From an uncultured Trueperaceae bacterium (GTDB taxonomy: Bacteria > Deinococcota > Deinococci > Deinococcales > Trueperaceae), in NCBI GenBank assembly GCA_913057165.1, contig CAJXNS010000005.1:1-64000 (forward strand): a DNA stretch of 64,000 nucleotides, in the 5' to 3' direction. The stretch's first letter is position 1. Each line of letters opens with the position of its first letter. Positions 41,188 to 42,413 of the stretch are shown piece after piece. The position numbers were made by a program, and so were the translations under genes. The notes under the pieces were generated by a model. That model searched no databases. It worked only from the letters and a program-made list of their open reading frames with translations, and was not told the DNA's origin.

Positions 41188-41216
41188 TTGAGTTCGTCGG
41201 GCACGTCTGCTAGCAT
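41188..41216 (+). promoter_or_regulatory. Predicted sigma-70 type promoter for infC-rpmI-rplT
   Basis: TTGAGT (41188-41193) and TAGCAT (41211-41216) are separated by exactly 17 nt. The predicted transcript has a leader of about 45 nt with a CTCGG/CCGAG hairpin (41226-41243) and the infC SD. Confidence 0.75.
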
Positions 41217-41253
41217 ACGGCGCCTCTCGGTGTTGTCTCCGAGGGCAACCTCT

Positions 41254-41261
41254 GGAGGTGA
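41254..41261 (+). promoter_or_regulatory. Strong SD that points to an ATA start for infC
   Basis: GGAGGTGA is complementary to the 16S rRNA 3' end over eight bases. The GTG at 41258 lies inside it, so that GTG is an unlikely start. The ATA at 41267 is 8 nt after GGAGG, the ideal distance. The SD also sits in a short ACCTC..GAGGT dyad. Confidence 0.7.
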
Positions 41262-41266
41262 AGTCA

Positions 41267-41800
41267 ATAGCGAAAGACCTGAAAGTCAACGATCAGATTC
41301 GCGTGCGGCAAGTTCGGTTAATTGACGCCGATGGTGGCCAGGTTGGCATTGTCGAGACGCGTGATGCTTTGCGTCAAGCGCGCGAAGGGGACCTTGACCT
41401 GGTGCTGGTGGGTGAGCGTGCCCAACCGCCCGTGGCGCGGCTTATGGACTACGGTAAGTACCGCTACGAGCTCCAGCAGGAAGCAAAAGAGGCACGTAAG
41501 CGGTCTCGTCAGCAGGAACTCAAGGCGATCAAGTTTCGCGTCAAGATCGGTGATCACGATTACCGCACGAAGGTCAATCACGTGCGCCGCTTCCTGAAAG
41601 GTGGCCACAAAGTCAAGGTCACGATCATGTTCAGGGGCCGCGAGCGTGCCCACACCTCTTTGGGAGAGAACATCCTGAACCGGGTGGCTCAAGACGTTTC
41701 GGATATCGCTGCTGTGGACCAAGCACCGATGATTGCGGGGATGGACATGAACATGACCCTCAGGCCCGTCGCTGAAACGCCACAAGAGGCCTCCGAGTAA
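41267..41800 (+). CDS. infC: Translation initiation factor IF-3 (probable AUA start)
   Basis: IF-3 keeps the 30S subunit free and proofreads initiator tRNA and start codon. The 177-residue protein starts (M)AKDLKVNDQIRVRQVRLID, has LDLVLVGERAQPPVARLMDYGKYRYE in parts, and the C-domain KIGDHDYRTKVNHVRRFLKGGHKVKVT in parts. The only start with a well-placed SD is ATA at 41267. Non-standard starts such as AUU are known for infC and let IF-3 repress its own synthesis, so autoregulation is likely here. The alternative is GTG 41258, which overlaps the SD. rpmI and rplT follow. Confidence 0.9.
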   Translation: MAKDLKVNDQIRVRQVRLIDADGGQVGIVETRDALRQAREGDLDLVLVGERAQPPVARLMDYGKYRYELQQEAKEARKRSRQQELKAIKFRVKIGDHDYRTKVNHVRRFLKGGHKVKVTIMFRGRERAHTSLGENILNRVAQDVSDIAAVDQAPMIAGMDMNMTLRPVAETPQEASE

Positions 41801-41852
41801 GGTACAGTTGACGGCCGGTGCGTCCGCGTACCGAACGTTCAAAGGAGACACC

Positions 41853-42050
41853 ATGCCGAAGTTAAAGACCCATAAGGGCACCAAAGCCCGTGTCAAAATC
41901 ACTGGGCGAGGTAAGGCAAAGGCCATGCGATCCGGAAAGCGGCACCTGAACTTCAAAAAGTCAGGCCGCCGAATCCGCCAAGGCCGCACCGATCTCATCC
42001 TCGCCAAACCGTCTGCGGACAGCATCAAAAAGCTGCTTCCGTACGAATAA
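41853..42050 (+). CDS. rpmI: 50S ribosomal protein L35
   Basis: A basic 65-residue protein beginning MPKLKTHKGTKARVKITGRGK, as in bacterial L35. The ATG at 41853 has an AAAGGAGA SD 7 nt upstream, so the longer open frame from 41808 is not used. It lies between infC and rplT in the usual order; in many bacteria L20 represses this operon, which cannot be seen directly here. Confidence 0.97.
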   Translation: MPKLKTHKGTKARVKITGRGKAKAMRSGKRHLNFKKSGRRIRQGRTDLILAKPSADSIKKLLPYE

Positions 42051-42062
42051 GGAGGGGACCGG

Positions 42063-42413
42063 ATGCCTAGAGCAAAAAGTGGGCCGGCGCGACGCGCCCG
42101 CCAGAAAAAGGTTCTAAAGCAAGCCAAAGGTTACTGGGGGCGTCGTTCTAAAACGTTCAAGAACGCCCAGCAGTCGATTCTGAATGCAGCCGATTACGAG
42201 TACCGGGACCGCCGGGACAAAAAGACGGCATTCCGCCGCCTGTGGATTGCGCGCATCAATGCGGCCTCCCGTCAGCATGGCATGTCGTACTCGACGTTCA
42301 TGCACGGCCTGAAGCAAGCCGGTGTGGAACTGGATCGCAAAGTGATCGCCGACATCGCCGTGCGCGACGAGGCGGGCTTCGAAGCGCTCGTTAAAGCGGC
42401 CAAATCCGCCTAG
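42063..42413 (+). CDS. rplT: 50S ribosomal protein L20
   Basis: A basic 116-residue protein with the conserved start [19 protein letters not shown], then [13 protein letters not shown] and the C-terminal [13 protein letters not shown]. It binds 23S rRNA early in assembly. An AAGGAGGG SD lies just before the ATG. A hairpin terminator follows the stop, closing the infC operon. Confidence 0.97.

Follow-up and report, generated by a model that had tools for sequence, protein, structure and literature searches.

A putative AUA start codon for infC in a Trueperaceae bacterium, and predicted non-AUG infC starts across the Deinococcota

In E. coli the gene for IF-3, infC, is clustered with rpmI and rplT. 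As cited in PMC5472188, it has an ATT start and is repressed by IF-3. The Streptomyces infC gene has an ATC start and is autoregulated, and Streptomyces sigR, with a GTC start, is under IF-3 control (PMC5472188). ATT starts are described for infC of Listeria (PMC13068326) and, with peptide support, of Xanthomonas (PMC5559785); the latter paper also cites an ATT start for D. deserti. In S. aureus an AUA start of infC was mapped by Ribo-Ret in 2026 and autoregulation was proposed, while reporters with non-AUG starts, for genes other than infC, gave about 10-30% of the AUG yield (PMC13009471). The usual reading of such infC starts is that IF-3 represses its own synthesis (PMC5472188, PMC13009471). 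The infC-rpmI-rplT operon of B. subtilis is reported to be controlled by an L20-interacting leader (PMC6097659). An AUA start of infC is thus already known from S. aureus, and IF-3 self-repression through a non-AUG start has long been known from the AUU of E. coli.

The infC locus considered here lies in a 64-kb stretch of Trueperaceae DNA, called the window below. Its main features are:

41254-41261, forward strand: Shine-Dalgarno (SD) sequence GGAGGTGA, the exact complement of the 3' end of the genome's own 16S
41258-41260, forward strand: decoy GTG within the SD, in frame with infC, rejected as a start
41267-41269, forward strand: putative ATA start codon of infC, predicted from its distance to the SD, from relatives, from codon usage and by parsimony
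41267-41800, forward strand: infC, encoding IF-3 (177 aa; TIGR00168 equivalog, PF05198, PF00707)
41853-42050, forward strand: rpmI (L35), second in the operon, with an ATG start and its own SD; identified from its sequence and its place in the gene order
42063-42413, forward strand: rplT (L20), which comes third in the infC-rpmI-rplT operon; identified in the same way as rpmI

The locus resembles that of E. coli in gene, in a non-AUG start with a third-base mismatch and in the cluster with rpmI and rplT, but the codon there is AUU and not AUA, and the feedback demonstrated in E. coli would apply here by analogy. With S. aureus it shares the gene, the AUA codon itself and an extended SD; S. aureus belongs to another phylum, however, and its start was mapped experimentally, whereas ours is read from the sequence. 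Streptomyces infC and sigR likewise have non-canonical starts of the kind rejected by IF-3, and sigR has an SD of the AGGAGGTG type containing a decoy GTG, although the codons differ (ATC and GTC) and the target in the case of sigR is not IF-3 itself. The B. subtilis L20 leader is also a structured leader in front of the same operon, but the leaders of the Deinococcota are small stem-loops whose 3' end lies directly ahead of the SD, and no Rfam family matched in the window or in 20 related loci.

The putative start site of infC

The protein read from the ATA is IF-3: it matches TIGR00168 with 200 bits, its residues 4-168 falling on positions 4-168 of the 170 in the model, as well as the Pfam domains IF3_N and IF3_C (PF05198 and PF00707). 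A single copy of infC was found in the genome. On the 5' side the nearest in-frame stop is the TGA at 41189-41191, and between this codon and the ATA the GTG at 41258 is the sole in-frame ATG, GTG or TTG. The 16S gene ends in ...TGGATCACCTCCTT, with an anti-SD matching the SD of infC, so that all eight bases of the latter pair. The computed pairing amounts to -15.2 kcal/mol when the start is placed at ATA 41267, compared with -7.2 and -6.4 kcal/mol for the next in-frame candidate codons; among the start candidates listed for the window, no other is better than -14.0 kcal/mol. By itself the octamer GGAGGTGA says little, because about two copies would be expected by chance in 64 kb (there is one), but the composite GGAGGTGA-N5-ATA, also present once, appeared in none of 100 shuffles. 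The original prediction had thus placed the SD, the ATA and the GTG correctly, and was right in holding that this SD is the best in the window, that the ATA lies at the proper distance from it, that the only in-frame GTG sits inside it and that the protein read from the ATA fits the IF-3 N-terminus.

Two CTG codons were also considered as starts and ruled out, that at 41207 for lying 5' of the predicted transcript start and that at 41252 for overlapping the SD. On the minus strand, a 270-codon antisense open frame (41318-42130) spans infC, rpmI and part of rplT; it is probably a by-product of composition.

Start codons across the Deinococcota and beyond

The codon fixed by the SD was read wherever a Deinococcota genome offered an infC leader, giving 102 distinct genes: ATA in 67, ATC in 20, ATT in 11 and GTA in four. 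None of the 102 has ATG, GTG or TTG at this position, so that the search of related genomes for ATG or GTG in place of the ATA, proposed with the original prediction, did not refute an AUA start. The gap between GGAGG and the start is 7-9 nt in 91 of these genes. There is no in-frame ATG, GTG or TTG between the ATN codon and the 5' stop in 62 of them, and in roughly 30 a stop codon stands immediately 5' of the ATN; Thermus (GTG TAG ATA AAG) and the Trueperaceae locus L030 (AAG TAG ATA GCT) are examples. In Meiothermus the GTG of the SD is out of frame. Since the GTG is thus out of frame or blocked by a stop in relatives, it would seem to be kept as a part of the SD and not as a start. Beyond the Deinococcota, scanning the proteins of named genomes gave 58 loci, mostly titled Actinobacteria and Acidimicrobiia, of which 53 are distinct infC genes with sufficient 5' sequence. 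Their codons at this position are ATC (28), ATA (24) and ATT (1), never ATG, GTG or TTG, and no canonical start is possible 5' in 34 of them. The position of the SD, the exclusion of canonical starts in most relatives and this conservation strongly support AUA as the predicted start of infC. The view that AUA is an unusual natural start holds for genes in general, among which it is rare, but not for infC, where it is the commonest start in the Deinococcota, is frequent outside the phylum and is on record for S. aureus.

Two loci of the survey call for comment. The Thermus infC at L106 (G105:C35:107700-108900) is broken across two frames, probably by a sequencing error. One Trueperaceae bin has a second, highly divergent infC, L052 (G023:C190); most likely this is a contaminating contig, and it was excluded from the counts.

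An internal isoleucine codon would likewise remain ATH without ever turning into ATG; what discriminates between the two is codon usage. The internal isoleucine codons of the same infC genes are ATC (77%), ATT (19%) and ATA (4.4%), and in the open reading frames of the window ATA makes up 1.9% of isoleucine codons. At the start position, by contrast, ATA accounts for 67 of the 98 ATN codons of the Deinococcota, which argues for a selected start codon. On a gene tree of 100 infC sequences, with codon changes counted by parsimony, the start codon changed eight times, seven of them at the third base and none to G. On the same tree, conserved internal isoleucine codons changed 14-17 times; fourfold sites underwent 9-35 changes and often have G. 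On codon usage and these third-base changes we reject ATA 41267 as an internal isoleucine; they indicate that selection keeps the predicted start codon from being AUG, with A favoured. It is by computation that we established how the site is built, that other starts are excluded, that the codon is conserved and that ATG is selected against.

The Deinococcota, Thermus, Meiothermus and Truepera included, would therefore seem to retain a non-AUG start for IF-3, mostly AUA, against mutation toward AUG. Such a phylum-wide start argues that a self-repression loop of the E. coli type is old and maintained by selection. A further consequence is that automatic annotation restricted to ATG, GTG and TTG will misplace the infC starts of this phylum.

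Predicted promoter and leader stem-loop

Two further features lie 5' of the SD:

41188-41216, forward strand: predicted promoter, with -35 TTGAGT (41188-41193), a 17-nt spacer and an extended -10 TGCTAGCAT (41208-41216)
41222-41246, forward strand: 5'-terminal leader stem-loop, with stem 41222-41230 / 41239-41246 and an 8-nt loop

This promoter would start the transcript near 41223 and give infC a leader of about 44 nt. A consensus promoter scan, which requires a closer match to the -35 and -10, did not report 41188-41216. Promoters of the same type (TGnTAnnnT with TTGnnn 17-18 nt upstream) nevertheless precede infC in most Deinococcota, as a rule 45-60 nt 5' of the start codon. Just 3' of the -10, at the predicted transcript start, the motif CGCYGTG is common to Trueperaceae leaders (L025, L030, L035 and L037, for example); the window's own leader lacks it.

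The CTCGG/CCGAG hairpin that had been predicted does exist, as a part of the stem listed above, and the fold of 41222-41251 has an energy of -14.2 kcal/mol (z -3.6). To compare leaders, we took the sequence from the promoter-defined start to the SD, with boundaries set regardless of folding. In 88 genomes, many of them close relatives and not independent, the mean fold z was -2.51, with 81% of leaders below -1.65, compared with mean z values of -0.27 to +0.39, and 2-11% below -1.65, in control windows of equal length placed 75-150 nt upstream and 60-200 nt downstream. The stem sequences vary by clade (GCCCGC/GCGGGC in Thermus, GTAGGCAAC/GTTGCTTGC in Meiothermus), and lengths range from about 20 to 80 nt within the Trueperaceae, where alignment of 10 short leaders gave no common structure. 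The Meiothermus leaders taken alone form a stem of 15 pairs in which 94% of cells are paired, although only two pairs are compensated and 17 of 500 shuffles were equally good, so that covariation is modest. In Rfam, neither the covariance model of the L20 leader nor that of any other family matched the region in the window or 20 related loci.

A hairpin that keeps the SD open was considered and rejected, SD accessibility being 0.41 as compared with 0.38 in shuffled leaders (p 0.057, non-significant). Protection of the 5' end, or a binding site, are guesses at the role of the stem. Perhaps infC in the Deinococcota is controlled at two levels, by its non-AUG start and by a 5'-terminal stem-loop, hitherto undescribed, that the phylum has kept between transcript start and SD, with the start of one clade of uncultured Deinococcales moved to GUA, but we regard this combined picture as doubtful. 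Both the stem-loop of the leader and the clade with GTA are in any case new and testable leads.

Proposed IF-3 feedback, its rivals and the GTA clade

We consider it very probable that infC is translated from AUA 41267 and is subject to feedback of the kind known from E. coli. Ribosomes, we infer, initiate at this ATA. The near-perfect SD would keep the 30S subunit on the start site, where fMet-tRNA would read AUA with a third-base mismatch; IF-3 is the factor that rejects mismatched starts of this sort. With free IF-3 plentiful, its own mRNA would then initiate poorly, and with IF-3 scarce initiation would rise, as in the loop of E. coli infC with its AUU. Such self-repression at AUA is suggested by analogy, its sequence signature being the same as that of a plain low-expression throttle. 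One point against the proposal is that, in the lowest-energy fold of the window's leader and start RNA, part of the SD and the ATA are paired, which would lower initiation; among the leaders of relatives this pairing was not seen as a conserved feature.

A very improbable alternative is that translation starts at the GTG inside the SD, giving the protein MKSIAKDL..., and that the ATA is an internal isoleucine codon. In the window, as in many Trueperaceae, this GTG is in frame; it is the codon that automatic gene finders would pick, and a comparable mis-call within the ribosome-binding site has been described for Streptomyces sigR (PMC5472188). It has, however, no SD of its own at a proper spacing; a stop separates the GTG of the SD from the ATN codon in Thermus, L021 and L030, its frame is wrong in Meiothermus, and the preference for ATA at the ATN position is far from the 4% found among internal isoleucines.

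Granting that the AUA start is real, it might be only a fixed throttle of low efficiency, setting the level of IF-3 against those of L35 and L20, with no feedback by IF-3. The yields of the S. aureus reporters would fit such a throttle, and conservation by itself is no proof of feedback. Yet IF-3 discriminates against starts of this kind, feedback on infC through AUU is established in E. coli (as cited in PMC5472188), and a throttle alone leaves unexplained why infC, above other genes, keeps the codon across phyla; we therefore hold it to be unlikely. Slightly less likely again is control exerted mainly by the leader stem-loop, for instance as a site for a ribosomal protein or another ligand, with the AUA start secondary. 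A stem-loop is indeed found across the Deinococcota, and B. subtilis offers a precedent for the same operon in the L20-interacting leader of PMC6097659, but against this stand the missing Rfam matches, the scant likeness of stem sequences between clades and the lack of a predicted common structure in the 10 short Trueperaceae leaders. IF-3 feedback at a predicted AUA start thus remains the preferred reading.

Four uncultured Deinococcales of three genera in one family (L009, L013, L015 and L018) have GTA where all the other Deinococcota infC genes surveyed have ATA, ATC or ATT. L114 and L118 are apparently the same records as L013 and L018. SD pairing at the GTA is -13.8 to -16.1 kcal/mol, and GTA makes up only three of the 61 internal valine codons in the four genes. 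In L013 and L015 an ATG that overlaps the SD stands two codons before the GTA, while in L018 and L009 there is only a GTG, within the SD or close to it. These candidates are most simply read as having a GUA start, and we consider the chances for and against it to be roughly even; if true, it would be the first for infC, as far as the surveyed literature shows.
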